From positions 1 to 44,878 of IMG/VR virus record IMGVR_UViG_3300020580_000028: a stretch of 44,878 bases of DNA; one strand, written 5' to 3'. The DNA is from a virus. The notes under the pieces were generated by a model. That model saw only the letters and a list, made by a program, of their open reading frames with translations. It did no database searches and was not told the origin of the DNA. Of this stretch, positions 6,838-26,078 are shown in pieces. The first letter of the stretch is position 1. Each line of letters begins with the position of its first letter. Position numbers and translations under genes: made by a program.

Positions 6838-7019
6838 GTGGCTTGTTCCATGATGCAATTTATTTCTTCATCGGAAAATCCTGATTCCTTTAGGTCTTTG
6901 ACCATCAATAGGCGTGCTTCTTCGGGTGTGTGTGCTGGTTTGTTTCCGAATATGCTTCCCGTCAAAACCCTAATAGATTCTCCAACGATCAGCGATATGG
7001 TCCTAAGCGACTTTCCCAT
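6834..7019 (-). CDS. Reverse-strand mini-gene 2, 61 aa, unknown
   Basis: The 61-residue protein starts MGKSLRTISLIVGES and ends in an acidic helical part with HTPEEARLLMVKDLKESGF and SDEEINCIME. This looks like a folded helical protein rather than an antisense shadow. TGCTATAAT ends 7 bases before the ATG and there is no Shine-Dalgarno. The gene fills the gap between the gp4-like and gp10-like genes, and its TAA shares the TTAA with the convergent gp4-like stop. No family recognised. Confidence 0.65.
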   Translation of the reverse strand: MGKSLRTISLIVGESIRVLTGSIFGNKPAHTPEEARLLMVKDLKESGFSDEEINCIMEQAT

Positions 7020-7035
7020 GGGCGGAATTATAGCA
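7020..7035 (-). promoter_or_regulatory. Extended -10 promoter of reverse mini-gene 2
   Basis: On the minus strand TGC-TATAAT (7035 to 7027) is followed by TCCGCCC and ATG 7019. The box overlaps the first base of the plus-strand gp10-like start codon, so divergent transcription and translation share the site. Confidence 0.6.
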
Positions 7036-9542: not shown

Positions 9543-10018
9543 ACTTTGAACGCACCCATGACATGGAACTCGTGAAGGACATAGTTACGCGGGATTCCAT
9601 TTACTGGCGCGTCACGGATGACCTAGCACCAACGCCCGAAAAGTGGAATCCCCTCGATGACGAATCCATGTGGTACGTCACCGCAAAGGAAGAAGCGGCA
9701 CTCCTCGGCATGTTCATCTTTACGCCGGAAAACTCGATTTCTTGGGCGATTCATCTCTGCCTGCTTCCACTGGCTTATGGCTCGAAAACTCGCTTGGCAC
9801 TGCGCGAAGTCACCGAGTGGATTTTCAAGAATTCTCGATGCCTGCGGATTGTCGGCTCAGTACCGTCCTACAACCGTGCAGCCGTCAAGTTCGCCAAGGA
9901 TTCAGGGTGGAAGGCGTACGGAGTGAATGAAAAAAGCTATCTAAAGCACGGAAAGCTATGGGATCAGCACCTATTCGGTATTTCTAAGGACACAGTATGC
10001 CAGTCGTTGGCAGCGTAA
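9539..10018 (+). CDS. GNAT-like N-acetyltransferase
   Basis: A 159-residue protein with the layout of the GNAT fold. The central strands are MWYVTAKEEAALLGMFIFTP and WAIHLCLLPLAYGSKTRLA. They are followed by a helix (LREVTEWIFKNSRCLRIVG) and a late VPSYNRAAVKFAKDSGWKAY segment, which is the classic C-terminal N-x-x-A-x-x-F-A-x-x-x-G-(W/F) motif of GNAT enzymes. It would transfer an acetyl group from acetyl-CoA to an unknown amine. GNAT-like genes beside ejection-protein genes occur in several P22-like phages. GTG 9539 overlaps the upstream stop. Confidence 0.75.
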   Translation: MNFERTHDMELVKDIVTRDSIYWRVTDDLAPTPEKWNPLDDESMWYVTAKEEAALLGMFIFTPENSISWAIHLCLLPLAYGSKTRLALREVTEWIFKNSRCLRIVGSVPSYNRAAVKFAKDSGWKAYGVNEKSYLKHGKLWDQHLFGISKDTVCQSLAA

Positions 10019-10746
10019 TCAGCGGAATTCTCGGTTCAAGCGCGGCGGGGAATGCAGCCAAGTCGCAAGAACAGGCACAGAAGCAAGCCCAAGCTAATTC
10101 ACAGCAGAATCAGCAACAGGCCATCGGCGCACAGCAGCAGGCTACTGGCTTCCAGCAGGCTTCTCAGAGTCCTTACACACAAGCAGGAGCGGGGGCTGTA
10201 ACTCAACTTTCAAACCTTCTAGGCTCTCCGGGAGGTGGTTGGAATCAATCTTTTCAAGCCCCGACTGCGCAGCAAGCCGCAGCGACTCCGGGATACCAAT
10301 TTCAGCTCCAACAAGGACAGCAGGCGCTTCAGAACTCGGCAGCGGCCCGAGGTGGGTTGCTGTCTGGAGGGACGGCAAAGGCTCTCGATCAGTACTCACA
10401 GGGTTTAGCCTCCACTGACTATCAACAGACCTACAATAACGCATTTCAGAACTATCAGCAACAATATCAGCAGTACCAGAATCAAGTGGGCAACCTGCAA
10501 AACCTCTCCGGGCTCGGCCAGTCCGCAACGCAGAACTTGACGAACCTCTCGCAAGCTGGAGCACAAAATCAAGGCGCACTCGATTACAACTTCGCAGGCC
10601 AGCAGAATCAGGCAATCACCAACTATGGTAATGCGAAGGCATCAGGCTATGTGGGGCAGGCGAATGCATGGCAGAACGCAATAACCGGCGCGAATAACTC
10701 AATCATGCAGGGCGTCTCACTCGCAGCACTGGGCGGCGGACAATGA
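9997..10746 (+). CDS. DNA ejection / internal virion protein (P22 gp7-like)
   Basis: A 249-residue Gln, Ala, Asn and Gly-rich protein. It starts with a small hydrophobic Gly-rich part (GSVISGILGSSAAG). The middle has TPGYQFQLQQGQQALQNSAA then RGGLLSGGTAKALDQYSQGL. This motif is common in phage ejection or transglycosylase-type internal proteins, and P22 gp7 has 229 residues. Position after the tail genes and before two more long helical proteins fits the ejection trio. ATG 9997 has AAGGA upstream and overlaps the GNAT gene by 22 bases. Confidence 0.75.
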   Translation: MPVVGSVISGILGSSAAGNAAKSQEQAQKQAQANSQQNQQQAIGAQQQATGFQQASQSPYTQAGAGAVTQLSNLLGSPGGGWNQSFQAPTAQQAAATPGYQFQLQQGQQALQNSAAARGGLLSGGTAKALDQYSQGLASTDYQQTYNNAFQNYQQQYQQYQNQVGNLQNLSGLGQSATQNLTNLSQAGAQNQGALDYNFAGQQNQAITNYGNAKASGYVGQANAWQNAITGANNSIMQGVSLAALGGGQ

Positions 10747-12179
10747 GTTCTATCCCACTGGTCGCCCTGATGGGGTTGTCCAGCACGCATCCTGTTCAGC
10801 CCGATAATGCGGTGGAAGATGCGGCGCTAGCGCAGCGTGTTGGCGCGGGGAGGCAGCAGCAGGCGCAATCTGCGGCATTGCAGCCCGGAATACTTGAACA
10901 GCAAGGTATTCAAGCGCAACTCGGCCATCAGCTGGTACAGCAAAACGCAAACCAGATGGCAGCGACAGCCGCCACGAACGCAGCTTACAAGAATGCTCTC
11001 ACGGTAGGTCCGGATGGAGTGCCCAGCATTGACCGCAACAAGGTCATTACAGCTCTGGGACAGAGCGGAGTTGCAGGCAGCGAGATACCGGGAACAATCG
11101 AGAATTTTACCAAGATGGATAAGACGATTGCCGATGCCGCGCAATCGAAGGCGAAGGCTCAGCAGGATGAACTTGATTATATGGGTGCCTTTGCAAAAAC
11201 GGCGATTGATTCCAAGTTTGACCCGAATGTTATGGGTATGCTTTTCTCGCACGCGCAGGCTATCTATCCCAATGAGACAGCACAGCTAAAGCAAACACTC
11301 CAGCAGCACCCCGAGGCGGCTCCCCAGCTTTTTCAGGGTATGCTCTCTCAGTCAGGCGCACAGCAAAAGGCATCCACCGAAAAAGAACAGGCGGATGCCC
11401 GTCTAGCACAAGCGAATAAGCCCACAGCCGAAACGCTCGCAGTGGCGGCGGCCGGTGGAGATACCAAGGCTAAATCGGCCCTCGATGTTCTCCAGGGCGA
11501 GAAGGGCCAAGTTACACCCGCTCTCCAATACACGCAGAACATGGAGAACTACCGTGCCACGCTCGCACGCCAAGCATCAACCGCCAACGAACTTCAGAAA
11601 CAGGGAATTAGCAATCTTCAGAAACAGAGCGACACCTACAGCGGATTTTTGAACACCTCGCAATCACTGAAGAACTCCTTGGCTGCGGCAACGAACGGCA
11701 ACGAGATGGCGGCGGCCGTCGCTCCGCTTCAGGGCACGCTATTCATCACCACGGCAGAAGGCGTGAAGCGTATTAACCAGACCGAGCTTGAGAACGTGGC
11801 TGGGGCTGGCTCCCTCGCGCAGCGCATCAATGGAGAACTCGGCAAGCAGACCGGAAAAGGCCCACTCTCGCAATCGCTGAAAGACGACATGGCCAAGCTG
11901 GTGGACATCTATACCGACTCGAAGTATGCGAACTACCAGAAGCAGGCAGCATATACCCAGAAACTCCACGGGCTAGACCCGAAGGCAACCCCAATTCTAG
12001 CTAAGGACGGAAGCATTTCGGGACAACCGCAGGCCGCTCCATCCGCCTCGCAGCCAAAGGCAGGAGCGGTACCAGATGCAGTCAATAAGGCGCTAGCAAA
12101 TGTAGGCCCTGGCATTCATAAGCTGAGCGATGGTACTTCATGGATGAAAGCACAAGATGGCACAGTTACAAGACAATAG
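10743..12179 (+). CDS. Ejection protein 2 (P22 gp20 position)
   Basis: A 478-residue protein, close to P22 gp20 (471 aa), starting at an ATGA overlap with the gp7-like gene. It is Gln/Ala-rich and almost wholly helical, with long coiled-coil stretches such as QKQGISNLQKQSDTYSGFLN (about residues 285-305). It has no enzyme motif. By synteny it is the second internal protein delivered into the host with the DNA. Sequence similarity to gp20 itself is not visible by eye. Confidence 0.65.
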   Translation: MSSIPLVALMGLSSTHPVQPDNAVEDAALAQRVGAGRQQQAQSAALQPGILEQQGIQAQLGHQLVQQNANQMAATAATNAAYKNALTVGPDGVPSIDRNKVITALGQSGVAGSEIPGTIENFTKMDKTIADAAQSKAKAQQDELDYMGAFAKTAIDSKFDPNVMGMLFSHAQAIYPNETAQLKQTLQQHPEAAPQLFQGMLSQSGAQQKASTEKEQADARLAQANKPTAETLAVAAAGGDTKAKSALDVLQGEKGQVTPALQYTQNMENYRATLARQASTANELQKQGISNLQKQSDTYSGFLNTSQSLKNSLAAATNGNEMAAAVAPLQGTLFITTAEGVKRINQTELENVAGAGSLAQRINGELGKQTGKGPLSQSLKDDMAKLVDIYTDSKYANYQKQAAYTQKLHGLDPKATPILAKDGSISGQPQAAPSASQPKAGAVPDAVNKALANVGPGIHKLSDGTSWMKAQDGTVTRQ

Positions 12180-13392
12180 CGGCGGTTTAACCGTGGTGGA
12201 CAGTCAGCCACTGCCTCAGCAGTCGTTGTCTGTTGTGGATAGCCAGCCACTGCCGCAAGCGCCTTCGGGCGAAATAAAGATGGGACCGCTTGGCGGGAAC
12301 GCACAAGACGCCGCGATAATGCAGCAGACGCAAAGGGAATATCCAAACGCCACAAGCCCTAGAACCATAGGTTCGGTAGCGGGGAGCTTGATGCTTCCCG
12401 GCGCTGCACCGGAGGCGGGCTGGTTGGCACATGCTGCACTTACGAGTTTGGGCGGAGGATTGGGAACGAGTGCGGGGCAGGCGGTGGAAGGTAAAAATCC
12501 CCTGGAAACTAAAAATCTCGAAGAGTCTGGAACCAATGCCTTAATGTTCGGACTCACTGACGCCCTATTCGGAGCACTTCCAGCTATAGCGAAATCGAAA
12601 TTGGGGCGCAGTGTAGTCAATGAATCGGTGGGAGCTACGGGACGTGATGTTACTTATGGTAATCCGGCCAAGGCACTAATGGATGAGGCAATCACATCCC
12701 CAATTACTGGCGACATCGAACAGGCGAAGGCAGCCAGAGGTGACTTGCGATTTGCTGGTGGTCGCCTCGGCGCGGTAGCGCAGCGAGTCTCGGAACTTCA
12801 GCCGCAATTGAATGCTGCTCTTTCGGCTTCACAAACACCACTCAGGGTCGCAGATATTATTGATAGACCATTGAACGACGCTGCCGACCAAATAATCCGC
12901 AACTCGGCAATGACAGTCGAAGAAAAAATGTCCGCTATCTCACAGCTTGGTGGTTTACAGGCTTCTCTACACGAAGGAATTGGGGACACGATTACGCCAT
13001 TGAAGGCAAATCAACTCAAGGAACTGGTAGGAAGTCGTGTGCGTTGGACTGGAACTAATGCTGTTGGGGATGATGTGAAGCCGGTTTATAAGCAAGTTTA
13101 TGGGAGCTTAAAGGATGCGGTCAATTCCGCAGTTCCTGATGCCGCACCGCTTAACGAACGCCTGACGAATCTTCATGCTGCGCAAGATGACCTCGTAAGG
13201 CTTGCTCGCAATGAGGAAGTCAGTAGAGGTACTGGCGCGATGCGGGGCACAATTGGCACAAGCCTACTAGGAAAAGTTGAATCACAGGCTGGACGTGTAT
13301 TGCCGGGAGCCGCTTCTGGCAGTGCGGCGGCAAGGAATATAAGGATTCCGCTGGGTTCGCTGCTTAATCCAGATTTACAGGTGGACCACTGA
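12157..13392 (+). CDS. Ejection protein 3 (P22 gp16 position)
   Basis: A 411-residue protein starting inside the end of the previous gene. The first 35 residues hold a repeat of VVDSQPLPQ (written twice). Residues about 70-150 are Gly/Ala-rich and hydrophobic (GSVAGSLMLPGAAPEAGWLA, LGGGLGTSAGQAVEG) and could insert into membrane. The rest is helical. This is the usual look of the third ejection protein in P22-like phages. No lysozyme or other motif is seen. The role is inferred from gene order. Confidence 0.55.
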   Translation: MAQLQDNSGGLTVVDSQPLPQQSLSVVDSQPLPQAPSGEIKMGPLGGNAQDAAIMQQTQREYPNATSPRTIGSVAGSLMLPGAAPEAGWLAHAALTSLGGGLGTSAGQAVEGKNPLETKNLEESGTNALMFGLTDALFGALPAIAKSKLGRSVVNESVGATGRDVTYGNPAKALMDEAITSPITGDIEQAKAARGDLRFAGGRLGAVAQRVSELQPQLNAALSASQTPLRVADIIDRPLNDAADQIIRNSAMTVEEKMSAISQLGGLQASLHEGIGDTITPLKANQLKELVGSRVRWTGTNAVGDDVKPVYKQVYGSLKDAVNSAVPDAAPLNERLTNLHAAQDDLVRLARNEEVSRGTGAMRGTIGTSLLGKVESQAGRVLPGAASGSAAARNIRIPLGSLLNPDLQVDH

Positions 13393-13582: not shown

Positions 13583-14842
13583 ATGAAACGGCCACTACTA
13601 GCTGTAGCGTTGATGTGTATCCCGGCACAAGCCCTTGCGCAAGTGACTGTGCAGCTTTCGCCGGTTGCGCATCAGCAATTCCTCGATAACTCCGGGCGTC
13701 CACTCGCGGGCGGATTTGTCTATTCCTACGCAGCGGGCACGAGCACGCCCCAAGCAACCTATGCGGACTCCACGGGCACGATTCAGAACACCAATCCTTT
13801 GCAGCTTGACGGCGGCGGCTTCGGGACGATCTGGATTTCCCAGCTGCCTTACAAAATATGCGTTGCGAACTCATCGAACGTCCAGCAGTGGTGCGTGGAC
13901 AACGTAACTAGCGGCGCAAATCTTCTCGTATTGACGAACCTCTGGACGAATCCACAGACGTGGCAAGCACTCGGTACATTCACTGCGGGCTTGGCTGTAG
14001 CAGGAGGACTCACTACCGACACGCTAGTCGCATCGGGCGGCATTGGAGTGGACGGAGCTCCTGCCAGCTTCTCGGGCGGCATCAATGGCAATCCGGGATG
14101 GGCACTCGCAGTTTCCAACACAAACCTACTCCAGCTATCACCCGGAGCCGTGCTAATTGCCGGAACTGTGACCGCAACGCAGGGAATCTTCACGGCCCCG
14201 ATAGGTGTTCCACCGATTCAGGTTGGGAGTTCCACGAACGTCCCGAACTTGAATGCTTCTTTTCTTAGCGGAAATACATTCGATTCGCCTGGGCCTATCG
14301 GTGATGCCACTCCGTCTACGGGCGTTTTCACGCAAGTATCTATCCAAAATGCAATCAATGGAGGATGCGTTCAAAGTAATGGCGGCCTTCTTAACGTCCC
14401 GATCCCTGGAATTGGTTGCAACAACCCCGCTGTGCAGTCCCTTACTACGAAGGTTCTGCCCGGAAATGTGGACTTGCCAGCGAACACTCTGGCGAACGTA
14501 GATTCGCAGACGGTAACCATGCCTGCGGTGGGATGCCCTTGCCGCGTGGTTATTTCCTACACCTACTTCTGGGAGACCGTTTCGGGCTCGGGCGCTGACA
14601 ATATCAATCTCTATGTTACCGATGGTGCTGGGATTTACGCACCCTCGCAGGGATCGGCTTCCAACGCCGCCACCACTGGCGGATTAAGCGCGACACAAAC
14701 AACTTCCTCTTATGCAAATTCCGCGAATGTGACCTTCACCGTGAAGGCCGAAGCTGCTCAGCACCAACAGATTGACGCAGCTGGAATCGTAATCGGAACG
14801 CTTAAAAGCTACCTCGAACTGAAGGTTGAAACCAGTCTATGA
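13583..14842 (+). CDS. Secreted tail fibre / tailspike-like protein 1
   Basis: A 419-residue protein with a Sec signal peptide (residues 1-19, ending QALAQ). The mature N-terminus has VAHQQFLDNSGRPLAGGFVY, then YAAGTSTPQATYADSTGT, then NPLQLDGGGFGTIWI. This is a widespread phage tail-fibre N-terminal domain, normally found without a signal peptide. The C-terminal half is beta-rich with few charges. The next gene overlaps as ATGA. A virion protein with an export signal is odd: see findings. Confidence 0.75.
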   Translation: MKRPLLAVALMCIPAQALAQVTVQLSPVAHQQFLDNSGRPLAGGFVYSYAAGTSTPQATYADSTGTIQNTNPLQLDGGGFGTIWISQLPYKICVANSSNVQQWCVDNVTSGANLLVLTNLWTNPQTWQALGTFTAGLAVAGGLTTDTLVASGGIGVDGAPASFSGGINGNPGWALAVSNTNLLQLSPGAVLIAGTVTATQGIFTAPIGVPPIQVGSSTNVPNLNASFLSGNTFDSPGPIGDATPSTGVFTQVSIQNAINGGCVQSNGGLLNVPIPGIGCNNPAVQSLTTKVLPGNVDLPANTLANVDSQTVTMPAVGCPCRVVISYTYFWETVSGSGADNINLYVTDGAGIYAPSQGSASNAATTGGLSATQTTSSYANSANVTFTVKAEAAQHQQIDAAGIVIGTLKSYLELKVETSL

Positions 14843-17800
14843 GAATACGTTGGCTGTTGCTTCTGGCTTTATTTCTCATCCCGCTCGAGGCGCAAGCTCA
14901 GGGCGTTCGGGTGGGCGACAATCCGCAGGTCACTTCCTCACCTATCTCGGGCGGGCAACTATTTGCTGTCGCCAATGCCAACATCAGCTTCTGCTCGCAT
15001 CCCGCGAATGCGGTGCCTTGTACCAATAAAGCCACCACCTATACCGACATCACACTCGGAACGCCATGCTCGACCAGCACCCAGATCGTACTCGCGGGCA
15101 CAAGCACTTGTGTTGCAAACTCTGATGGACTCGGCAACTGGGGCGTGTGGGTAGCGGCGGGGACTTACGATTACACGATTCAGCTTCCGGGCGGCGGAGC
15201 AATCGGCCCGTATACGGTAACGCTTTCATCGGGCGGCGGAGGATTTACTGCCGCAACTGACCTCTCTGGAACCAGTACATCGCAGAACGTAATTGGCCTG
15301 CACTTCGGCGTGAATGCGATCACGCTTGCAAACTCCGCGCAGACAGGATGCTTGCAAATTAGTGCGGGCGTACTCGGTGGAACAGGGAATCCTTGCATCA
15401 CCAGCACATCCAATACACCACCGGCTGGAGTTGACACACAGCTTCAGTTCAACAAGAGCAATACGTTCGGAGCATCAACCGGACTAGGGCTTGATAGCAG
15501 CACGTCGCCAACCGTCCTCAATATTCCATTCAGTGCCTCTATAAAAGGGCCGCGTCCTTGGGTAGACGTTACTGCATACGGCGCGACTGGCCTTGGCGTG
15601 GGACATGATGACACAGCAGCGATCACCGCCGCCATAGCCGCAGCCTGCGCAGCGAATTCGGCTACAGTATTCTTTCCTCCCGCACCGAACTTTTACGCAG
15701 TTACGCAGGTTCAGACAGGAACCTCGGCAACTGCTGCCATCTTCCCCATTCCCTGCTCTGGTATTCATCTCTTGGGTGGAAGCTCGGAAGCTGAGAGCCC
15801 ACAGCTAAGACAGGGGCCTTCAACCGCGATTGTCGTTGTAGTGGGAGCTTCACCGAATCCTGGCCCCGTTTTCTCTGTAATCGGAGAAGTCGGTGTTACC
15901 TTCCAGAATTTGACCATTCAAGGCTTCAATGAAGCCATTTACATAGGCGATGCCAATGGCGCTGGCGCAACTTCCAACATCGTCCTCCATGATGTAAACA
16001 CCTCCGTCAATGGGTTGAGCGGGCGCGGGACGGCAACGCAACCCAACTGTGCGGAAGTATATGGCGGCGGTCTCTGGTACACGGCTACGGGCGGTGGGGC
16101 ACAGGCCACGGGAACGGGTAACGGGAATGCTATCTGCATCCTGAACGACACTGGCAGCCAACCCCCTGGCATTATCAAAATGAGCGACCGCACCATGGTC
16201 AACTGCATTGACGCCAAATCTATCGGGCCACAGACGGGCACGGCGGGCGATTGGGTCTTTTATAATGTGGTTGGAGAAGATTGCAACAATGGCTATTTCG
16301 TAATTGACGATGACGGCTCGCATCCATGGCAGAACATCACAGATATAAACATTGAAGGTGGGGGCACTTCGGATGACTCCTATTCTGCCTACTTCACCCT
16401 AAATTCAAACGTAACCGTTCAAGACCTCAGAATCTCACAGACTTCCGGGCTGGCTTTCGGAGCGGCGCTGATTAAGAAGCTACAGGGGAGCATATCATTC
16501 GGCAGCATCCTGGGTTCGCCTGCGGCTTCTGGAAACGTGGCGATAGACGGAAGCGGCAACACCACCGGCTCTCTCTACATGGAGAACGGATTCGGCTTCG
16601 ACCTATTTTCAGCCACTACTCAATCTTCCGAAACAGATATTCAACAAAACTCCGTTCCTACGGGTGGCTTCCGGGCGTTTCAGACCGGTAATCCCGCAGC
16701 AAGTTCATTCGCCACGGTGAACGCCGATCCTTATCTTGGTTATGGGATGGGACTGTCCACGAACTATGGACCAGAAGTGGCGCTGAAGTCTAGTGCGGCT
16801 GGCTCATTTGATGTGACATTCCCCGGAGCTTATGCGCCCACGAATCTTGCAACTTCACCCACCACGGGCGGCAGTATCGCGGCTGGAACCTACTACTATT
16901 TCCTGCTTACTTCCACAAGCGGGAATTGCAGCACTGGATTGTCTGTGCCAACCACAGGGATACCTGTCACGCTGTCCGGCGCGAACAATGCAACCACATT
17001 GACGTGGACTGACCCTGTTCTTTCTGGCACGGGTGCAATTCAGGGCTATTGCGTCGTGCGGGGCAGTTCATCGCAGGGTCCGCATTGGTCTCAAAATGCC
17101 CAATATCACGGTGGCCACTTCGTTACAGGATCGGGCACTACAACTTTCACCGATACTGGCATCGCAGAGTGCTGCTTCCAGAATCACATCCCAATCGGCA
17201 CATTCTCCGGGGTGCACCGCTTCACATCCACTTCGCTGGGCGTCAACACTTTGTCCCCCGGCACTTATAACCTCAACGTCAATGGAACGGCACTGCATCA
17301 GAGCTATATCGACTTCACGGAAATATCCACCCCTGCGAATCCATCCGCAGGATTTCAACGGGTGTGGGCCGATTCAACCCACAGCTTGCTCTGCAAGATT
17401 TCTACCGGAGCATCCTGCATCTCGGGTGGTGGCGGTGGTGGGCCGCTGTTTCAGGTGAACGGAACTCCGCTCATCTCCAGCACTACAGTCAATTATCAGA
17501 ACAGCGCAGCAACGAACGGCCTCACGCTCGGCTTCACAAACCCCAGCGCCGGGAACGTGCAGCTTACTCTCTCAGGCACTTGCACAATCGCAATGGGCTG
17601 CACTGGGGCGACTACCGCACCGGCTGCATTCAACGCCCTCGCGCCTTCAACCTTCACGGGTGGCCTCATTGTCGGCAACGGCACAAACCAATATGGCAAC
17701 TTGGGAATCGGCTCGAACGGAACGGTGCTTACATCGAATGGCTCAACGGCTCTGTGGCAAGCGCCCACCACCATTTCAACCACGGGCTCACCGCTGGCAG

Positions 17801-19302
17801 CGCAAGGCACATTCTTCAGCGCGGCAAACACTGTGACGGGGAGTGCTAATTGGACATACAGTGCGGGCTCAGGGCACTCCATCGCACAGGGCGCGAACAA
17901 TACCGATGTTATTTATGGCAATCGCAACACCGACGTTGCCTCCACCGGAAACTTCCTCCACTTCCAAAACGCAGCGAAGAACTCGGACATCTTCAAGGCC
18001 GATGTAAACGGCAACCTATCCATCAGCCAGCAGCTCCAGACTGGTACGAGCGCCACGACCCACTTCTTGCAGATTCCGGGTGGTACGCCATCGGGCTGCT
18101 CGGCCACTTTCGCGGCATTCACCGCAGATGCTTCGGGCAATGCGATGCTCTGCAATAACGGAGCGGCGGCAGTCTATGTGATGTTCTCGGGTGCAGACCT
18201 GAACTCTTCGAGCCAAGTCACGTCAACGCATCTAAGCGGGCCAAGCACAAATACCCTCGTCAAGTCAGTAGGCGGGAACCTCGTCAACAGCACTCTCGTA
18301 GACAACGGCACAAACGTAGCGTCCGGCTTAGACATTGACCTTGTGGCGAACGCGGAAACCAATGAATGCGTCAATGATACCGTGACGGGCACCACGAACA
18401 ACCTGCTCATGAAGCCCACATCTACCGGCTGCATCAAGGCTGGAACTGGAGACATCAACACACAGACTTACATTGTTCAGAGGGGTGGGGCAACTTCAGG
18501 TTTCGCCCAGTACGTTTCTGGCGGGCAGGGCCTTTGCACGATGGATGCGAACGGCTCAAACACACGCGGATTCTACGTAATCGCTTCAACCGGAACGGCA
18601 GGGCAATGCCATGCGCAATCTGCTGCGCCTTCGGTGGGAATCTGGGTCATTGGGCAAATGATTGCCAATTCCACCAGCGTAGGCGCATCGGCGGCTGTAA
18701 ACGTAGATGGCTATTTCTATGTGGCAAGCGGAGCGGGCACCGGAACCGTCACCAACATTGCGACCAGCGCACCACTTGGCGGCGGCGCGATCACGACCAC
18801 CGGAACGCTGACTTGCACAACATGCGTGACAGCATCGGCCCCCGGTGCTGGCGTGGCTCACTTCGCAGGTGCAACGCAGGCCGTAACAAGCTCTGCGGTA
18901 GTTGGCGCTGACATGACCAACAACACCGTGACAGCTACTCAGCTTGCCGCGCAATACAGCAAATGGATATGCGAGACGGGTATCGGCGATGGCCTGAACG
19001 CTATTCCGGCTGGCACTTACCTCCAGTTCTTCTGCATCAATAAGACGGGCGTAACGGTGACGCTCACCGGACTGCTCTGCTTCACAGACAATGCGGGAAC
19101 TTCGAGCATGAATGCCGCGAACAATGCGAGCACGGGCCTGCTGACTGGGGCGGTAACCTGCAACAATACCAAGACGGGCGGCGGAAATTCCGGGACGCAA
19201 TCTGCGACCACAACGCTGGCCTCGAATGATGCAATCTCTTTCACCTTCGTAGCAGACGGAACCTCGAAACAAGCAACATTCACGGTGACCGGAACCTACT
19301 AA
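14839..19302 (+). CDS. Secreted giant beta-helix spike-like protein, 1487 aa
   Basis: This is the largest gene here. Residues 1-20 form a signal peptide (RIRWLLLLALFLIPLEAQAQ). Residues about 236-300 have PRPWVDVTAYGATGLGVGHD and DTAAITAAIAAACAA, the N-terminal signature of pectate-lyase-superfamily beta helices (phage tailspikes and depolymerases). The following 300 residues have the regular turns of such a helix. The C-terminal 800 residues are low-charge, Thr/Ser/Gly/Ala-rich repeats with many CTxxC-like pairs. A sugar-binding or sugar-cleaving surface protein is likely. Whether it is part of the virion is not shown by sequence. Confidence 0.7.
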   Translation: MRIRWLLLLALFLIPLEAQAQGVRVGDNPQVTSSPISGGQLFAVANANISFCSHPANAVPCTNKATTYTDITLGTPCSTSTQIVLAGTSTCVANSDGLGNWGVWVAAGTYDYTIQLPGGGAIGPYTVTLSSGGGGFTAATDLSGTSTSQNVIGLHFGVNAITLANSAQTGCLQISAGVLGGTGNPCITSTSNTPPAGVDTQLQFNKSNTFGASTGLGLDSSTSPTVLNIPFSASIKGPRPWVDVTAYGATGLGVGHDDTAAITAAIAAACAANSATVFFPPAPNFYAVTQVQTGTSATAAIFPIPCSGIHLLGGSSEAESPQLRQGPSTAIVVVVGASPNPGPVFSVIGEVGVTFQNLTIQGFNEAIYIGDANGAGATSNIVLHDVNTSVNGLSGRGTATQPNCAEVYGGGLWYTATGGGAQATGTGNGNAICILNDTGSQPPGIIKMSDRTMVNCIDAKSIGPQTGTAGDWVFYNVVGEDCNNGYFVIDDDGSHPWQNITDINIEGGGTSDDSYSAYFTLNSNVTVQDLRISQTSGLAFGAALIKKLQGSISFGSILGSPAASGNVAIDGSGNTTGSLYMENGFGFDLFSATTQSSETDIQQNSVPTGGFRAFQTGNPAASSFATVNADPYLGYGMGLSTNYGPEVALKSSAAGSFDVTFPGAYAPTNLATSPTTGGSIAAGTYYYFLLTSTSGNCSTGLSVPTTGIPVTLSGANNATTLTWTDPVLSGTGAIQGYCVVRGSSSQGPHWSQNAQYHGGHFVTGSGTTTFTDTGIAECCFQNHIPIGTFSGVHRFTSTSLGVNTLSPGTYNLNVNGTALHQSYIDFTEISTPANPSAGFQRVWADSTHSLLCKISTGASCISGGGGGGPLFQVNGTPLISSTTVNYQNSAATNGLTLGFTNPSAGNVQLTLSGTCTIAMGCTGATTAPAAFNALAPSTFTGGLIVGNGTNQYGNLGIGSNGTVLTSNGSTALWQAPTTISTTGSPLAAQGTFFSAANTVTGSANWTYSAGSGHSIAQGANNTDVIYGNRNTDVASTGNFLHFQNAAKNSDIFKADVNGNLSISQQLQTGTSATTHFLQIPGGTPSGCSATFAAFTADASGNAMLCNNGAAAVYVMFSGADLNSSSQVTSTHLSGPSTNTLVKSVGGNLVNSTLVDNGTNVASGLDIDLVANAETNECVNDTVTGTTNNLLMKPTSTGCIKAGTGDINTQTYIVQRGGATSGFAQYVSGGQGLCTMDANGSNTRGFYVIASTGTAGQCHAQSAAPSVGIWVIGQMIANSTSVGASAAVNVDGYFYVASGAGTGTVTNIATSAPLGGGAITTTGTLTCTTCVTASAPGAGVAHFAGATQAVTSSAVVGADMTNNTVTATQLAAQYSKWICETGIGDGLNAIPAGTYLQFFCINKTGVTVTLTGLLCFTDNAGTSSMNAANNASTGLLTGAVTCNNTKTGGGNSGTQSATTTLASNDAISFTFVADGTSKQATFTVTGTY

Positions 19303-20121
19303 TTGAAACTGTTTAGGCTCTCAAGTGCGGTTCTCGCGCTTCTGATCGCAGGGATAAGCACGCCCGCGCAGATGAATGGTGGGCACCGCAAAATATTCAC
19401 GGCGGCTGCCGGCCCTAGCGCGTTCGCCTATGTCGCAGGGACCGTTACGGGCTGCGTAACCTTGGGAGCTGGAGCAACCCGCTGCGCCTATAACCTCCAC
19501 GTCAATCCTACCGCTGGGCATCTTGGCGTTGTATCTGTCGAATGGTCATCTACCACCGCAACCGCCTCTTTTGCCTGCACGAATAATGGCGCATGGACGG
19601 CAATCGGCTCACCGAAGGCAGGCGCAGGAGGGCAGGCGGGCAATAGCGGCCAGCTATTCTATATCGCGTCAATGGTGGCAGGGGCGGGGCCAGAACTCTG
19701 CACGCTGACGATTAGCTCAACAGTTTCTATCATCCTTTGGGAATATGCCGAGTACTCCTACTCTGGAACTCTCTCAACCCTCAACGGCACGCCTCAATAC
19801 AGCAATACAGCGGCATCGGGTGGAGTCGCGACAATTAGCGGCCTCACTACTACCGGCTCAGGAAATCTGGTTCTCGCTGCCTGCATAGGTGTTGATTCCA
19901 CCTGCACGGTTGGGGCCGGGTATACCGCTCGCAATGACACGAATGCCTGTCAGGGTGTTGGTTCCGCTGCGTCTTGCGGAGGCGGCAGCACGGGCCATGA
20001 CTTCAACGGCGAAACGGGCGGACTGTTAGAGGAAAAGACGGGCGTAGGCGCTGGAGCGCAGACAGCAACATTCGGAACTGGAACGACTGACGCCGTGATC
20101 CTGGGATTGGTGGCCTTTTGA
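19303..20121 (+). CDS. Secreted beta-sandwich protein, unknown
   Basis: A 272-residue protein starting at TTG 19303, directly after the giant spike gene. Residues 1-23 form a signal peptide ending STPAQ. The mature part is Gly/Thr/Ala-rich beta strand with scattered Cys pairs and few charged residues. It shares the style of the neighbouring fibres and may be an accessory fibre or adhesin. The next gene starts at an overlapping TTGA. Confidence 0.55.
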   Translation: MKLFRLSSAVLALLIAGISTPAQMNGGHRKIFTAAAGPSAFAYVAGTVTGCVTLGAGATRCAYNLHVNPTAGHLGVVSVEWSSTTATASFACTNNGAWTAIGSPKAGAGGQAGNSGQLFYIASMVAGAGPELCTLTISSTVSIILWEYAEYSYSGTLSTLNGTPQYSNTAASGGVATISGLTTTGSGNLVLAACIGVDSTCTVGAGYTARNDTNACQGVGSAASCGGGSTGHDFNGETGGLLEEKTGVGAGAQTATFGTGTTDAVILGLVAF

Positions 20122-23100
20122 TAAAGCGATTCGCTCTCATATTTGCAATCTTTGGTTTCTGTTTCACCGCGCATGCGCAATTCTACACAACCACATTTCC
20201 CGCCGTAGAGAATCCGATTGCCCAAGGTTCTCCTCCTATCTGGCTAAATGGTGCGCTCAACTGCACACACATGACCAATGTGCAGACCGTGTTGGGCAAT
20301 GGTGGCGTGCAGATGGCCACTGGCACAACCGTCAACAACACTACTACGTTCAACGATGGGACGGCGATACTTACGGGAACATGGGGCACAACGCAATCTG
20401 CAACCGCCGTGGTTCACACCATCAACCAGCCTATCAATGCTGAACAAGAGGAAGTAGAGATACGCCTGCGGTCTTCCTGTTTCGGCAACACTGATAATGG
20501 GTATGAACTTGACGCATCGGTGCAAGGGGCCAGTGGTTCTCTTTACTTCGTAATCGTTCGGCATAACGGGCCAGCGGGCAACTTCTGTTTCCTCAATCTG
20601 AGTGGGGGGTGCGATGCAGTCTACAATCCTTCCCAGCATGCCATAACGAATGTCCACATTGCGGACGGCGAAACTATCTCGGGCACAGCGACCGGCACGA
20701 ATCCCACCACGCTAAAGTTCTTCCATCAAGGTACGCTGGTAATGACCCGCACCGATAACGGTTCAGGCGGGGTTAGCTGTACCGGAGCCTGTATCACTGG
20801 GCCCTATACGGGTGGCGCTCCCGGCATGGGCTTCTGGAACCTGAACGGCGTGGCGAGCGACTTCCTAAACTACGGCTTCTCTACCTTCACCGCACAAGGG
20901 GGAGTTCTCGCGGCTACCTGCAATCAGTCAGATGTGTTTACGGCAATCGGCTCAGTGAATGATGGGGACACGGTACTTATTCCCGATGGGACATGCGATT
21001 GGACGAATGGGCTTACCGGGCAGTTTGCGATAAACACTTCCAAGCAAATCCAGATTCTCGCGCAGCACATCAACACGACCGCGCCATTAGTCTATGGCAG
21101 CCCGCCAGCGCGAAGCGTCACAATCATCAACGATACCTCCACTATTAACGCATCGACGAATCAGTGGCAAGGGAACTGGTCGAATACGACGGCTTATGTG
21201 GTTGGTGACAGGGTTTTGAATAACTTTACAGGTTGTGCTGCTCCTTTCCACTGCGATGGAAATTATTACTTGGCGATCTCACCAAATACCGGCCAGCAAC
21301 CGCCCAACGCAACCTTTTGGAAGCCTGTAGCTGCACTGATAGGCTTGACTTCAGGGAACAATTTCCATCAGCGCATTGCGGGAATCTATTTCAAAGAAAC
21401 ATCCCAGCCCATTTTGAATGCCATCGCAACTAGCGGGACTGGAACCAAAGAACCATTCCTCGACAATGACACCATAGAAATCGCCCAGCGATTCGGCAAT
21501 GAGCCGCAAATTTCGGTTCTCGCCATAACCGGAATTGGCGCTTTATCTTGGAACACCTACATTGTGGGGGTCACTACGGCGGGCGTGCCTGCTGGCGAGT
21601 GCTGCCCAGGGGGAGCCAGCGTTCATATTGAGTCTCCTTATCCTTGGTATAACGCCGATACACTCGGAATGGCAGACGTAGACGCACTGGGGAATCACGG
21701 GAACATAAACGTCTATTTTGAGGACGGAGTGTGGGACAACTTCGGGCAGGGATGGGATTGCGATAACAACTGCCGCTTCGTTGCTCGCCACATGGTTCTA
21801 AATGGAATCGCCGCCCAAACCCATGGACTATCCTCCACCACGGGAGGGCGGCAGGTAGAGGATTATAACAATCAAATTGGTAACCCTAAAAATGGACGCA
21901 ACCTGAGCCGCAGATACAATTGGGACAGGGAGGGCATTTGGTATATCCATGACAATATGGTTGCCTATCAGGATGAAGGTTTCGGCGCAGCCACCCTTCT
22001 GGATTCCATCGTTGAGTGCGGGCCGGGTGCGACCTGTGCTAATGATGGCTCCGTTGCCTATCCCCATTTCAAAGTTCCGGGTGGTGAGCAAACCAGTTGG
22101 AGTTGCAGCACATGCACAGGCAATCAGAGCACGAGCACCCCAGCCAACCACCCTAGCTATATCTGGAATAATTGCATCTCGGGACATGCGCTGCCCTGTA
22201 CGGGGGATTCGCATATAGCCGCGAATGGAGGCGCGTCCCCGTTTTTCTTTCAGCTAGGTAGGGACTACTTCGTGGACAGCGGAGCACCAGCGGGCTACAC
22301 ACCATTCACCTACCCGCATCCAGATAGGGCATTGACATTCGGAGGTGGCACCACCTCAGCTCCCGCTAGTCCCGTCACCAGCGATAGCCCGAATCCAATG
22401 GCATTCGGAAACGTGACGATTGGGTCACCTAGCACGCAGACGCTGACCATAACGAACGTGGGCATGGCCACGCTGGTAGTCACCGCCAATGGTTTGGGCG
22501 ATACAACAGTCTGGAGCAAGAACACTTCTACCTGCGTCCCTACCCCGAACGTAGCACCGGGCGGGACTTGCACGATCGGGGTCACATTCAGCCCGACCGC
22601 GACGGGACTCAAGACAACCACCCTCTCAATCACCAGCAATGCCCCATCTAGCCCCGACATCATCAACCTAAGCGGTACGGGAGTATCGGGTGCGCAACCG
22701 GGCATCAACATCGCCCCCGCATCGCCGTTCAATTACGGCAGCGTAGTCGTCGGGGCTAATTCATCGCAATCATTCACGATCACGAGCACGACTACCGCCG
22801 CCCTCGTGATGGGCAGTCCCCCTGCAACCATCTCGGGAACGAACGCGGCAGACTTCGTATTGACGTCCGGATGTACTGCGGGCCAATCTCTAGCGCAATC
22901 GCAGACCTGCCTTGAAACTGTGAAGTTCACGCCTTCCGCAACAGGTTCACGCACGGCGCAACTGAACATCTCTGACAATGCGGCCGGCAGCCCACAGATC
23001 ATCCAGCTTTCGGGCACAGGCACCACGCCGATAGCCTCTGTCTCTCCTGCGGCGGCGGTTTTCAATAACGTGGTAGTCAATCAGACGCCCGCCATTCCAA

Positions 23101-23387
23101 TAATTCTCCAGAATATCGGCTCGGCTCCGCTAAGTGTATCCAGCATCGTTATGAGCGGAGCGACGTTCTCCCAAACGAACAATTGCCCTGCATTATTGGG
23201 AGCGGGGGCTTCCTGCACGATCCAGGTAACCTTCGCGCCTACCGTGACCGGCACCGCATCGGGCACGCTGACGATCACAGACAATTCATCCACGGGTTCA
23301 ACGCAGACAGTACCAGCATCAGGCTCAGGCATCTTGGTTCCCTCAACAATGAGTGGAGTTCAACTTCAAGGAGTACAAGTCCAGTGA
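20118..23387 (+). CDS. Secreted fibre-like protein with C-terminal ASH (HYDIN-like) domains, 1089 aa
   Basis: TTG 20118 overlaps the previous stop. Residues 1-21 form a signal peptide (KRFALIFAIFGFCFTAHAQ). Residues about 60-240 look like a lectin-type jelly roll, and about 260-740 like a right-handed beta helix with several Cys and Asn-rich turns. From about residue 755 three copies of an immunoglobulin-like ASH unit follow. Each has the pattern FGNVTIG, LTITNVG, GGTCTIGVTFSPTATG, then LSGTG. Such units are common in acidobacterial secreted proteins, so the tail of this gene was probably picked up from a host. Role: adhesion or surface binding. Confidence 0.7.
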   Translation: MIKRFALIFAIFGFCFTAHAQFYTTTFPAVENPIAQGSPPIWLNGALNCTHMTNVQTVLGNGGVQMATGTTVNNTTTFNDGTAILTGTWGTTQSATAVVHTINQPINAEQEEVEIRLRSSCFGNTDNGYELDASVQGASGSLYFVIVRHNGPAGNFCFLNLSGGCDAVYNPSQHAITNVHIADGETISGTATGTNPTTLKFFHQGTLVMTRTDNGSGGVSCTGACITGPYTGGAPGMGFWNLNGVASDFLNYGFSTFTAQGGVLAATCNQSDVFTAIGSVNDGDTVLIPDGTCDWTNGLTGQFAINTSKQIQILAQHINTTAPLVYGSPPARSVTIINDTSTINASTNQWQGNWSNTTAYVVGDRVLNNFTGCAAPFHCDGNYYLAISPNTGQQPPNATFWKPVAALIGLTSGNNFHQRIAGIYFKETSQPILNAIATSGTGTKEPFLDNDTIEIAQRFGNEPQISVLAITGIGALSWNTYIVGVTTAGVPAGECCPGGASVHIESPYPWYNADTLGMADVDALGNHGNINVYFEDGVWDNFGQGWDCDNNCRFVARHMVLNGIAAQTHGLSSTTGGRQVEDYNNQIGNPKNGRNLSRRYNWDREGIWYIHDNMVAYQDEGFGAATLLDSIVECGPGATCANDGSVAYPHFKVPGGEQTSWSCSTCTGNQSTSTPANHPSYIWNNCISGHALPCTGDSHIAANGGASPFFFQLGRDYFVDSGAPAGYTPFTYPHPDRALTFGGGTTSAPASPVTSDSPNPMAFGNVTIGSPSTQTLTITNVGMATLVVTANGLGDTTVWSKNTSTCVPTPNVAPGGTCTIGVTFSPTATGLKTTTLSITSNAPSSPDIINLSGTGVSGAQPGINIAPASPFNYGSVVVGANSSQSFTITSTTTAALVMGSPPATISGTNAADFVLTSGCTAGQSLAQSQTCLETVKFTPSATGSRTAQLNISDNAAGSPQIIQLSGTGTTPIASVSPAAAVFNNVVVNQTPAIPIILQNIGSAPLSVSSIVMSGATFSQTNNCPALLGAGASCTIQVTFAPTVTGTASGTLTITDNSSTGSTQTVPASGSGILVPSTMSGVQLQGVQVQ

Positions 23388-23746
23388 GAATAGCTCTAGC
23401 AGCATTTTTCGTATTGTTTATCGGCTCAGCAATGCGTGCGCAGAATCCAGCCATAACTCCGGGGGTGATTTCCTCGGCCACGACTGCGACGCACGCGACG
23501 TGTCCAACAAACTACCCGAATCTGTGTATCGTGGCGGATGGGGTGTATGTCTGCCAAGGGGCAGGTGCGTCATGCTACGTTCCGGCTGCCGCTGCGGGAG
23601 CCATATCGCTGACACTCAACGGTGTGACGAAGACACTGCCTGCATCCTTCACGGTCTCGGCGGCGGCTCCGTCAGTTAGTGCGCCGACAATTTCCGCAAG
23701 CTCATCTGCGCCCAGCGCATCAGCGCCAGCAATAACGGCACAGTGA
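23384..23746 (+). CDS. Small secreted protein, 120 aa
   Basis: GTG 23384 overlaps the stop of the ASH-domain gene. Residues 1-19 form a signal peptide (ALAAFFVLFIGSAMRAQ). The mature part has three Cys in CPTNYPNLCIVADGVYVCQG and a Ser/Ala/Pro-rich C-terminal tail. Its 3' end overlaps the PEP-CTERM gene in antisense by 71 bases. Function unknown. It closes the row of secreted fibre-like genes. Confidence 0.6.
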   Translation: MRIALAAFFVLFIGSAMRAQNPAITPGVISSATTATHATCPTNYPNLCIVADGVYVCQGAGASCYVPAAAAGAISLTLNGVTKTLPASFTVSAAAPSVSAPTISASSSAPSASAPAITAQ

Positions 23747-24230
23747 ACAGCATTAGCGTCGAAGGTTCGGGAGTGCCAACGGGGTCTGCTGCGCCCCAGC
23801 TGACATATTCCGTATCAAATGGCGAGCCGCCAGCGCCGAATATCTTCACCCCATCGCCATCGTAGAAGATTCCAAAACATTGAGCGCCAGTACAGAAAGA
23901 TATGCCTTCAGGTAGGTCTGCAAACATGAGGAAGTCATCAATGCCGGGAGCGGGGAACAATGGCCCCTGGAAGCTGATGGGATCGCCATTGAATGTGCCG
24001 CTAATCGCCGTCTCGACTGGAAAGGTGCCTTGGGCCGGTACGCCCAGATAATTGAAGAAAAACGTGCCCGTCTCGGTTTGGGTGGTCATTGTGGCGGTGA
24101 GGTTAAATGGCGTGTCGCACTTCTCGAATCCGAAGCAGACCAGATTGCCGGTGATGTCCCACATTTGAGTATCCGCGTGAGTAGGTACTAGACCTGCAAG
24201 TACTAGCACAAAAGTGGCAAACACTTTCAC
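23676..24230 (-). CDS. PEP-CTERM anchored exported protein
   Basis: A 184-residue protein on the minus strand. GTG 24230 follows GGAGG at a 7-base spacing. Residues 1-19 form a signal peptide (KVFATFVLVLAGLVPTHAD). The C-terminus has TPEPSTLMLFTVPLLLALMR, then a basic tail. This is the tripartite PEP-CTERM sorting signal (PEP motif, membrane helix, basic end) processed by exosortase in hosts that make exopolysaccharide. The middle is beta-rich with two Cys pairs. It sits alone on the minus strand between fibre and lysis genes, as expected of a moron gene taken from a host. Confidence 0.85.
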   Translation of the reverse strand: MKVFATFVLVLAGLVPTHADTQMWDITGNLVCFGFEKCDTPFNLTATMTTQTETGTFFFNYLGVPAQGTFPVETAISGTFNGDPISFQGPLFPAPGIDDFLMFADLPEGISFCTGAQCFGIFYDGDGVKIFGAGGSPFDTEYVSWGAADPVGTPEPSTLMLFTVPLLLALMRWAQMSLRKLSAH

Positions 24231-24309: not shown

Positions 24310-24615
24310 ATGGACTGGTCTAGGTTATTAGAGACGGTAGCGACCACCACCGTGCCCATCCTTCTGTATATGTGGGCCAATCGCTCTAGGGCCAAGAGGG
24401 AAGCCGAGAAGAAAGCCGTGGCTGTTCAAGACACATTGGAAAATACCTCTAGGGACTTAGAAAGGAAACAAGACGAGCGACACCGACAGAATCAAGAAGC
24501 CCTCGGTGAAATCAATAGCAAACTGACCTATTTTCCGCCCCACATCCACCTGGAATCTGAAGGCCCCCTAGAAGCCAAGGGCATTCGATATGTCCCCAAA
24601 AGGAATGGCAGATGA
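24310..24615 (+). CDS. Membrane-anchored coiled-coil protein, possible lysis accessory (holin or inner spanin)
   Basis: A 101-residue protein with one N-terminal membrane segment (VATTTVPILLYMWANR, residues about 10-25). A charged coiled coil follows at residues 28-70 (KREAEKKAVAVQDTLENTSR). One membrane span plus coiled coil is the layout of inner spanins and some holins. It opens a group of three overlapping genes that ends in the endolysin. ATG 24310 has GGGAGCC upstream. Confidence 0.6.
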   Translation: MDWSRLLETVATTTVPILLYMWANRSRAKREAEKKAVAVQDTLENTSRDLERKQDERHRQNQEALGEINSKLTYFPPHIHLESEGPLEAKGIRYVPKRNGR

Positions 24616-24809
24616 AAGTTCAAATCCTAGCCCTTGTTTCTTCTTTCATAGCTGGAGGGGGACTCGTCAAGCTCTTGGTCTATGTATCCAAGGCGCTGCC
24701 TCCCCTGAAGTCTGACGCGGGATGGTGGAGGCAATTATTTTACAACCTGATTAAGAACACCAGCGGCCTCGACCCGAGCGCCACAATTATCAATCCGCCT
24801 GCAAAATAG
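24612..24809 (+). CDS. Putative holin, 65 aa
   Basis: ATG 24612 overlaps the previous stop. The 65-residue protein has one hydrophobic segment at residues 3-27 (KVQILALVSSFIAGGGLVKL) and a shorter apolar part later. It directly precedes and overlaps the endolysin gene, the usual place of a holin. The family is not recognised. Confidence 0.5.
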   Translation: MKVQILALVSSFIAGGGLVKLLVYVSKALPPLKSDAGWWRQLFYNLIKNTSGLDPSATIINPPAK

Positions 24810-25168
24810 TGCACCCCAAGGCGATAGAACTAGCCCACGCAATAGCAGCCGCAGAGGGATTCTTTGTCCCGAATAGCTTGCCAGCGCGTTGCCACAATCC
24901 AGGCGACCTTGAAATGGGCGATGTAGGTGGCGGAGTAGACCACGAGAAGACCATTTTCCCCGATGATGCAGCGGGATGGCTTGCGCTCCAGCACCAATGC
25001 GATTTGATGCTTACCGGCCATTCGCACGTTTACAAACTAACTGACCGAATCATTGACGTGGCCTGCAAGTATACGGGGAACGATTCGCCTGTTACGTGGG
25101 CCGCAACCGTAGCGCAAAAGCTCGGCGTGTCGGCGGCTACAAAGCTGAGTGAATTACTTGATACGTGA
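24809..25168 (+). CDS. Endolysin, lytic transglycosylase-like
   Basis: A 119-residue protein starting at GTG 24809, which overlaps the upstream TAG. It has an early Glu in AIAAAEGFF (residue about 15) that fits a catalytic acid. Next come RCHNPGDLEMGD, then FPDDAAGWLALQHQCDLML, then VAQKLGVSAATKLSELL. This order is typical of a small phage muralytic family with an NNPGNL-like motif. It would cleave peptidoglycan at lysis. It has no signal peptide, so it needs the upstream holin candidate for release. Confidence 0.7.
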   Translation: MHPKAIELAHAIAAAEGFFVPNSLPARCHNPGDLEMGDVGGGVDHEKTIFPDDAAGWLALQHQCDLMLTGHSHVYKLTDRIIDVACKYTGNDSPVTWAATVAQKLGVSAATKLSELLDT

Positions 25169-25179
25169 CAGGTTGAGGC

Positions 25180-25292
25180 TGCGCATTCGATCCGATTCGA
25201 ACGGATGGGTGGGGTGCCTAAAACGCCCCTCGGCGGCTGCTGTAGCCCCACTCTAGCCGGGTCAGGCTTTGACCTCTCGCCCACAAATGCGC
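25180..25292 (-). ncRNA. tRNA-like RNA with long insert, anticodon unclear
   Basis: On the minus strand GCGCATTTG (25292-25284) and CGAATGCGC (25189-25181) can form a 9-bp acceptor-like stem. A T-arm follows the rules exactly: ATCCG, loop TTCGAAT, CGGAT. A D-arm-like hairpin GGGC, loop GAGAGGTCAAA, GCCT resembles those of class II tRNAs. The anticodon arm is poor: ACCCG and TGGGG around loop GCTAGAG, with one mismatch. About 39 bases with their own GGGG/CCCC hairpin separate it from the T-arm, far more than a normal variable arm. It could be a decayed tRNA, an unusual suppressor-type tRNA, or a tRNA mimic. Confidence 0.5.
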
Positions 25293-25302
25293 AACGGAAT
25301 GC

Positions 25303-25311
25303 ATTCTAGCA
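25303..25311 (-). promoter_or_regulatory. Extended -10 box before the tRNA-like RNA
   Basis: TGCTAGAAT on the minus strand is identical to the box before reverse mini-gene 3. The expected start, 6-7 bases on, falls 3 bases before the acceptor-like stem of the tRNA-like RNA, so the RNA would start almost exactly at its mature 5' end. Confidence 0.5.
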
Positions 25312-25318
25312 CAAATCC

Positions 25319-25510
25319 GTGAGAACCGGCACAGCTTGGGCTCGCCGTTCAATCGCAGGCGCACGAGCCAAGGTGAATGACGGCATCCCGCCATGCTTCT
25401 ACTGCACAAACCTTTCGACGTGCGAATCGGGCGGCAAGTCCGTATGCGACAAGCACGCGAAGATCACCAATGCACCAATCTATCCGTTAAGGAGATGTGA
25501 TGAGAAATAG
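25319..25510 (+). CDS. Small zinc-knuckle-like protein, 63 aa
   Basis: A 63-residue frame from GTG 25319 with PPCFYCTNLSTCESGGKSVC then DKH, a C-x2-C-x5-C-x7-C-x2-H spacing that suggests a metal site. The N-terminus is basic. No Shine-Dalgarno is present at the GTG, and GTG 25373 is an alternative start. It overlaps the lipoprotein gene start by 11 bases. Function unknown. Confidence 0.5.
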   Translation: MRTGTAWARRSIAGARAKVNDGIPPCFYCTNLSTCESGGKSVCDKHAKITNAPIYPLRRCDEK

Positions 25511-26078
25511 AAAACTTCTTTTGCTACTCCCCGTCCTGCTCTTGGCCGGGTGTATCAGCGCCGCAACGATTGCTTCTTACCTGCCAATCTTTGAGACTGC
25601 GGTGAATGGCGTTATCGCTCTCGTGAAGCCTGCGGCATCGCCCGCGATACAGGCCGATGAAGCGAAGGTGAATGTGGCCGTGACTGACCTCGTGGCCGCA
25701 ATCAACAACATTCAGGGCTCGACTACGGTATCGGCAGCACTCTCAGACGTGGAATCCGCTGCAACTCAACTCGAAAGCGATTTGGGCGTCTCGACCAACA
25801 AGGACGTGCAGCTCGCTACGGCGATCCTTGACCTCGCCATCGGAACCTATCAGGCGATTATCCAAGCGCACATGCAATCCCTGCCGAAGTCGGCCATGAA
25901 CGCCGAGCCCGTGCTGTGGGCATCATATCCGCCCCAAGTAAAGGCGGGGATGCGGGTGCGTCCCGCAGCGAAGTCTGTCGGCGATTTCAAGAGGCAGTTC
26001 AACAAACTCGTCAAGGATGGCGGACACCCGGAGATGCAGATGAAGCTCTCGATGGGCGAGAAGCTACACGTTCGATGA
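25500..26078 (+). CDS. Lipoprotein, possible outer spanin or envelope protein
   Basis: A 192-residue protein from ATG 25500 with AAGGAG upstream. Residues 1-19 end in a lipobox (LLLLPVLLLAGC), so the mature protein is a lipid-anchored envelope protein. The mature part is helical and Ala-rich to residue about 125, then basic. Its place after the lysis genes suggests an outer spanin, but it is longer than most. It could instead be an exclusion or surface lipoprotein. Confidence 0.65.
   Translation: MRNRKLLLLLPVLLLAGCISAATIASYLPIFETAVNGVIALVKPAASPAIQADEAKVNVAVTDLVAAINNIQGSTTVSAALSDVESAATQLESDLGVSTNKDVQLATAILDLAIGTYQAIIQAHMQSLPKSAMNAEPVLWASYPPQVKAGMRVRPAAKSVGDFKRQFNKLVKDGGHPEMQMKLSMGEKLHVR

Follow-up and report, generated by a model that had tools for sequence, protein, structure and literature searches.

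Tailspikes with predicted Sec signal peptides in a clade of P22-type phages suggest probable virion completion outside the cytoplasm

Tailed phages are taken to assemble their particles wholly in the cytoplasm. The tailspikes of P22 (gp9), Pam1 and Pan3 (PDB 2vky, 2xc1, 9jg6, 7eeq, 9vyg) share an N-terminal hub-docking fold, are encoded after the ejection genes and begin with this domain itself, and P22 assembles its spikes without export. Homologous N-terminal domains, 30–49% identical to our query, occur in Xanthomonas phage PBR31, Rhodoferax phage P26218, Shewanella phage X14 and Vibrio phages; PBR31, P26218 and several of the Vibrio phages also share the capsid family of the phage described here. 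None of their tailspikes that we examined carries a signal peptide. In contrast, the present phage encodes the same fold in the same genome block with a Sec signal peptide in front of it, its mature chains are cysteine-rich, and its spikes are predicted to be exported.

Other phage proteins made late in infection likewise carry signal peptides. SAR/signal-peptide endolysins, outer-membrane spanins and superinfection-exclusion lipoproteins act in lysis or exclusion, whereas the predicted exported protein found here carries a virion docking domain. The coat proteins pIII and pVIII of filamentous phages are virion proteins made with Sec signals, but their assembly takes place at the inner membrane as the particle is extruded, and the present phage is a tailed dsDNA phage. 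Fixed-word searches of the open-access literature found no published case of an exported tailspike in a tailed phage, and the excerpts on phage signal peptides that they returned deal with lysis proteins or methods.

The window, the whole stretch of DNA analysed here, corresponds to one virus record 44,878 bases long. Since the portal gene is split over the two record ends (44300-44878 and 164-1738), the record represents a whole, circularly permuted genome. Its main landmarks outside the signal-peptide genes are as follows.

44300-44878: portal protein, first part (phrog_156)
164-1738, + strand: portal protein, second part (phrog_156; E 2e-72 and 4.5e-38, both parts)
3032-4270, + strand: P22-type major capsid protein (phrog_283, E 3e-67; relatives annotated 'P22 coat protein')
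6930-8519, + strand: gp10-like tail/head-closure (stabilisation) protein (phrog_578, E 2e-91), used as an independent tree marker
9997-13392, + strand: ejection-protein block (9997-10746, 10743-12179, 12157-13392), with neither signal peptides nor cysteines
24310-26078, + strand: putative lysis block, from sequence inspection
24612-24809, + strand: small membrane protein of the putative lysis block, from sequence inspection
24809-25168, + strand: possible muramidase-like protein, recognised by eye
39607-41082, + strand: terminase large subunit (phrog_2, E 3e-38; phrog_5902, E 2e-73)

The genes for the portal, scaffold, P22-type capsid, gp10-like protein, gp7-like ejection protein (9997-10746; phrog_598, DNA ejection, E 6e-21) and two further presumed ejection proteins follow one another in a single block, which supports the original prediction of a P22-type phage. 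The last two (10743-12179 and 12157-13392) are taken as ejection proteins from their position and cysteine-free composition. Downstream of the ejection genes, and adjoining them within the virion gene block, lies a row of signal-peptide genes, followed by the lysis block, early genes and the terminase. Family searches gave no matches in the lysis block. At its 3' end, the product of 25497-26078 has a signal peptide with an LAGC lipobox and is possibly an outer-membrane spanin or another lipoprotein.

Five consecutive genes and a sixth at 41443 had been predicted to start with Sec signals ending in AQ-type sites, and all six were found in place.

13583-14842, + strand: fibre 1/tailspike, with signal peptide, P22-type head-binding domain and C-terminal TNF/C1q-like beta-sandwich
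13583-13639, + strand: Sec signal peptide of fibre 1 (19 aa), which the N-termini of signal-less relatives do not have
13667-13912, + strand: head-binding domain of fibre 1 (aa 29-110), with the mature-chain cysteine pair C74/C85 on adjacent strands
14839-19302, + strand: fibre 2 (1487 aa, 32 Cys), with signal peptide (14839-14898) and conserved N-terminal domain (14899-15288)
19303-20121, + strand: third signal-peptide protein (272 aa, 8 Cys)
20118-23387, + strand: fourth signal-peptide protein (1089 aa, 26 Cys; NF012200, E 2e-50; Pfam ASH family)
22347-22649, 22662-22991 and 22995-23294, + strand: three choice-of-anchor-D/ASH Ig-like domains of the fourth protein
23384-23746, + strand: fifth signal-peptide protein (120 aa, 4 Cys)
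41443-43668, + strand: sixth signal-peptide protein (741 aa, 27 Cys), between terminase and portal

Each of their N-termini has the three-part layout (n-, h- and c-region) of a Sec type I signal. The n-region is basic, the h-region spans at least 7 strongly hydrophobic residues, positions -3 and -1 carry small residues, and cleavage is predicted before Gln: MKRPLLAVALMCIPAQALA|Q for 13583, MRIRWLLLLALFLIPLEAQA|Q for 14839, MKLFRLSSAVLALLIAGISTPA|Q for 19303 (TTG start), MIKRFALIFAIFGFCFTAHA|Q for 20118 (TTG start), MRIALAAFFVLFIGSAMRA|Q for 23384 (GTG start; here the -3 residue is weak, M for MRA|Q) and MRKLLFLFLLAALPAWA|Q for 41443. On a home-made n/h/c-region score, calibrated on eight known E. 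coli signal peptides (6.8–10.9), the six genes scored 8.3–10.8 (10.4 for 13583). All 13 head, connector and ejection proteins of the window lack a Sec signal at their own start. A score of at least 8 was reached by about 2–3% of 1312 phage ORFs of at least 200 aa, and the chance of five in a row is ~1e-8 (order of magnitude). Moreover, the starts of 14839, 20118 and 23384 overlap the preceding stop codon by four bases (ATGA/TTGA/GTGA) and 19303 begins directly after a stop, indicating that these starts are well placed. That ordinary N-termini merely resemble signals, by chance or through mis-called starts, is thus very improbable even with three TTG or GTG starts, given this background of 2–3% per ORF and the recurrence of the signals throughout a clade, with the same ATGA coupling in two of its members (G002 and G003); comparative sequence data already contradict this reading.

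We then compared fibre 1 with known tailspikes. In cultured podoviruses and most IMG/VR relatives the homologous domain begins at the initiator Met (MAVVSPTAKAQF, MSVNLSPLAGAGWQF, MAVQIAPLPVMRF), so that these proteins open with the domain itself (MAVVSPTAK.., MSVNLSPL..), whereas the window has ..ALA|QVTVQLSP; its domain begins with QVTVQLSPVAHQQF directly after ALA, at the very point of the relatives' start Met. The domain profile (A2) matched PDB 7eeq_A, 'Tailspike head-binding domain', with an E-value of 1.8e-10, and 9vyg with 6e-10 (9vyg and 9vyh at about 1e-9). Two AF2 models were weak overall (pLDDT 46 and 51), good in the head-binding domain alone and lesser in the C-terminal domain; the fibre 1 model matched the tail complexes of Pan3 and Pam1 as well as the head-binding domain of P22 (Foldseek: 2vky, 9vyg). 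These matches indicate that 13583 encodes a tailspike or fibre with the N-terminal head-binding domain of P22-like tailspikes, a protein that should bind the tail and that bears an additional signal peptide at its start, and the predicted fibre N-terminal domain right after a cleavage site is thereby confirmed for this gene. Attachment of fibre 1 to the virion is well supported by this homology. The C-terminal 125 residues were modelled, with moderate confidence, as a trimeric sandwich of the TNF/C1q type seen in lectins; the predicted sandwich (mature residues about 276–400) resembles the BC2L-C lectin and is possibly a sugar-binding tip.

Relatives were gathered from IMG/VR with capsid and head-binding domain queries, plus larger record pieces. 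A signal peptide directly before the head-binding domain was found in 16 records (the window, G001-G007, G014, L167, L173, L203, L222, L229, L241 and L249; L229, G004 and G014 were recognised by eye), while about 110 other distinct relatives have the domain without it. Further signal-peptide genes follow in most sufficiently long records (G001, G002, G003, G004, G006, G007, L203, L222, L229 and L241). For a phylogeny independent of the trait we used the gp10-like protein, with the 11 signal-peptide records that have this gene, the mixed phage L168 and 76 signal-less rows; sequences of the second ejection protein diverge too far to give a useful tree. The 11 records and L168 form one clade (SH-aLRT 100), and all 76 signal-less rows fall outside it. 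The closest member to the window is only 56% identical in the gp10-like protein, which indicates that the signals have been kept over a long divergence. L167, L173 and L249 also have a signal peptide directly before the domain, without a usable gp10 match, and may represent separate origins of this combination.

Each near-whole signal-peptide record searched has one head-binding domain (split over the record ends in G006), and this domain stands behind a signal peptide. No signal-free spare spike is therefore present in these phages. In the close relatives L092 and L229 the signal sequences are unrelated, while the mature start QVALxPFTKSQFFDNxGRP is kept; signals that diverge while mature starts stay point to selection on signal type or function and not on a structural contact.

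The mixed phage L168 (6980-8125 and 8145-11732) lies inside the signal-peptide clade, and its head-binding fibre 1 has no signal peptide, whereas signals are retained on its fibre 2 and on one other gene. Export is thus not strictly needed for the head-binding domain. This would suit a dual use, in which part of the spike pool stays in the cytoplasm for attachment to virions and the remainder is exported, to coat the cell or be secreted, and the TTG/GTG starts and N-terminal extensions before some of the signals could tune such export. We nevertheless regard dual use as quite unlikely, because signals scoring as high as those of OmpA and DsbA predict little escape and the cysteine-rich mature parts suit full export.

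This richness in cysteine was examined at several levels. The six signal-peptide proteins of the window contain 103 cysteines in 4014 residues (2.57%), against 23 in 4147 (0.55%) for the 13 other virion proteins (p 4e-14), a 4–5-fold enrichment. Because early and regulatory proteins are likewise cysteine-rich (2.26%), virion proteins and signal-less relatives of the same fibre are the appropriate references. In 71 such relatives we counted 162 cysteines in 28,283 residues (0.57%). Across all fetched domains, cysteine made up 1.48% with a signal and 0.67% without it for fibre 1, and 1.89% and 0.85%, respectively, for proteins with the fibre 2 type of domain; it should be noted that these cysteine and signal counts are phylogenetically non-independent. 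L168 offers an inner control: its fibre 1, which lost or never had the signal, has 2 cysteines in 382 residues, against 24 in its signal-bearing fibre 2.

The position of the cysteines follows the same trend. A cysteine pair in the head-binding domain, Y[KR]xC-x10-CxDN, was present in 5 of 12 sequences with a signal and in 0 of 93 without it, and never as a single cysteine; in the AF2 model of the window domain the pair lies on neighbouring strands (71–76 and 82–89). Just after the signal peptide, the fibre 2 domain has four cysteines that are invariant in the window, G003 and L168 at 52–57% identity. Even cysteine counts were found in 31 of 36 proteins with a signal and 49 of 75 signal-less relatives (p 0.025), but parity is weak evidence since the signal-less relatives are also mostly even. 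Overall, the cysteine pattern, including the cross-strand pair, fits what would be expected for oxidative folding in the periplasm.

These data also bear on the idea that the hydrophobic N-termini are not export signals but serve assembly in the cytoplasm, as structural tags or as tags that direct proteins to the membrane. Although cytoplasmic assembly is the rule for tailed phages, such tags are improbable here: the A-x-A|Q sites fall exactly at the domain border, the peptide sequences are unconserved even between close relatives, and both the cysteine enrichment and the domain cysteine pair go with the signal. Spike export is strongly supported by this comparative evidence, from which we infer actual export and cleavage.

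The other signal-peptide proteins are less easily assigned. The original prediction of five fibres was too strong, since the products of 19303 and 23384 reach just 272 and 120 aa, respectively; the three beta-helix genes that it named were not confirmed in Pfam, PHROGs, NCBIfam or PDB sequence searches, and Pfam and PDB sequence searches found no beta-helix family in fibre 2. Neither 14839 nor 41443 had a match among cultured phages, and fibre 2 and the ejection protein 12157 gave no usable relatives as viral-contig queries. A profile comparison showed no significant link between the fibre 2 domains and the head-binding domain, so a docking role of fibre 2 is suggested by its position alone; its AF2 domain model was poor and was left out of our conclusions. 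The conserved N-terminal domains of these five proteins would nonetheless fit docking. In G001, fibre 1 (L144, 16054-17313, - strand) carries the starting domain of its relatives' fibre 2 internally, at mature residues 195–285, which suggests that docking or stalk modules are shuffled between fibres. The 41443 protein, which lies outside the row, is homologous to signal-peptide proteins of G003 and G004; its homologue stands at the equivalent place after the terminase in G004 (L156) and inside the fibre row in G003.

Alternatively, the exported proteins could serve mainly away from the virion, whether on the surface of the host or free in the medium, where they would act as adhesins, as depolymerases of the matrix or by blocking superinfection. 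The products of 19303, 20118, 23384 and 41443 have no known virion domain, bacteria also have proteins with the choice-of-anchor-D domains of 20118, one of them encoded on a Granulicella plasmid, and L168 has signals on other genes while its fibre 1 has none. On the other hand, fibre 1 carries the sole head-binding domain of near-whole signal-peptide records, so that an off-virion role would leave the phage without a tailspike, and the conserved parts are the N-terminal parts after the signal, as in tail-docking fibres. Searches of Pfam and NCBIfam found no enzyme family in the six proteins, and 13583 has a docking domain, which is not what a free secreted depolymerase would show. We therefore consider a mainly off-virion role unlikely. 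Among the three fates originally proposed for the proteins, waiting in the periplasm and joining virions at lysis is favoured by the virion domain of fibre 1, its sole copy per near-whole signal-peptide phage and the location of the cassette in the virion block; coating of the host and matrix depolymerisation are disfavoured for fibre 1 and possible for the other five.

We thus propose that the spikes are probably exported, processed and oxidised, and join the tails when lysis breaches the inner membrane. The six proteins would be the phage's own tailspikes or fibres, made as Sec precursors. Late in infection Sec would carry them into the periplasm, where they would be cleaved at A|Q and fold with disulfide links; in the cytoplasm, meanwhile, heads bearing tail hubs would mature. 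Once holin, endolysin and spanin open the inner membrane, the mature N-terminal head-binding domain would meet the hub, and the virion would be finished at or after lysis. The disulfides and the timing of attachment are what we infer from these patterns. The P22 tailspike adds to finished heads in vitro. It also forms a highly stable trimer and can refold in vitro (PMC9576892). Together, these two properties make docking after lysis plausible. For the clade, the evidence on balance inclines us to a two-compartment assembly, in which Sec-exported tailspikes, disulfide-bonded in the periplasm, dock at lysis and complete the virion outside the cytoplasm.

If this is true, virion assembly is split between two compartments, receptor-binding proteins could carry disulfides, sticky spikes would be kept from the cytoplasm until release, and they could first cover the infected cell's surface or clear it. 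A signal peptide directly before a head-binding domain provides a sequence rule by which such phages can be recognised, and in practice the folding of these spikes may depend on expression in the periplasm.

As for the host, a genome scan with the terminase returned only proteobacterial relatives (proviruses; 49–59% identity), and the head-binding domain was not found in the four proteobacterial provirus genomes searched. Overlapping the end of gene 23384, an antisense gene (23676-24230, - strand) encodes a protein that starts with a signal peptide and has a PEP-CTERM-like tail (TPEPSTLMLFTVPLLLALMRWAQMSLRK); it had no NCBIfam match and no usable relatives in viral contigs, and is possibly a phage-borne exosortase substrate. 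This PEP-CTERM-like neighbour and the Granulicella plasmid match to the choice-of-anchor-D part of 20118 suggest Acidobacteriota as a possible host.
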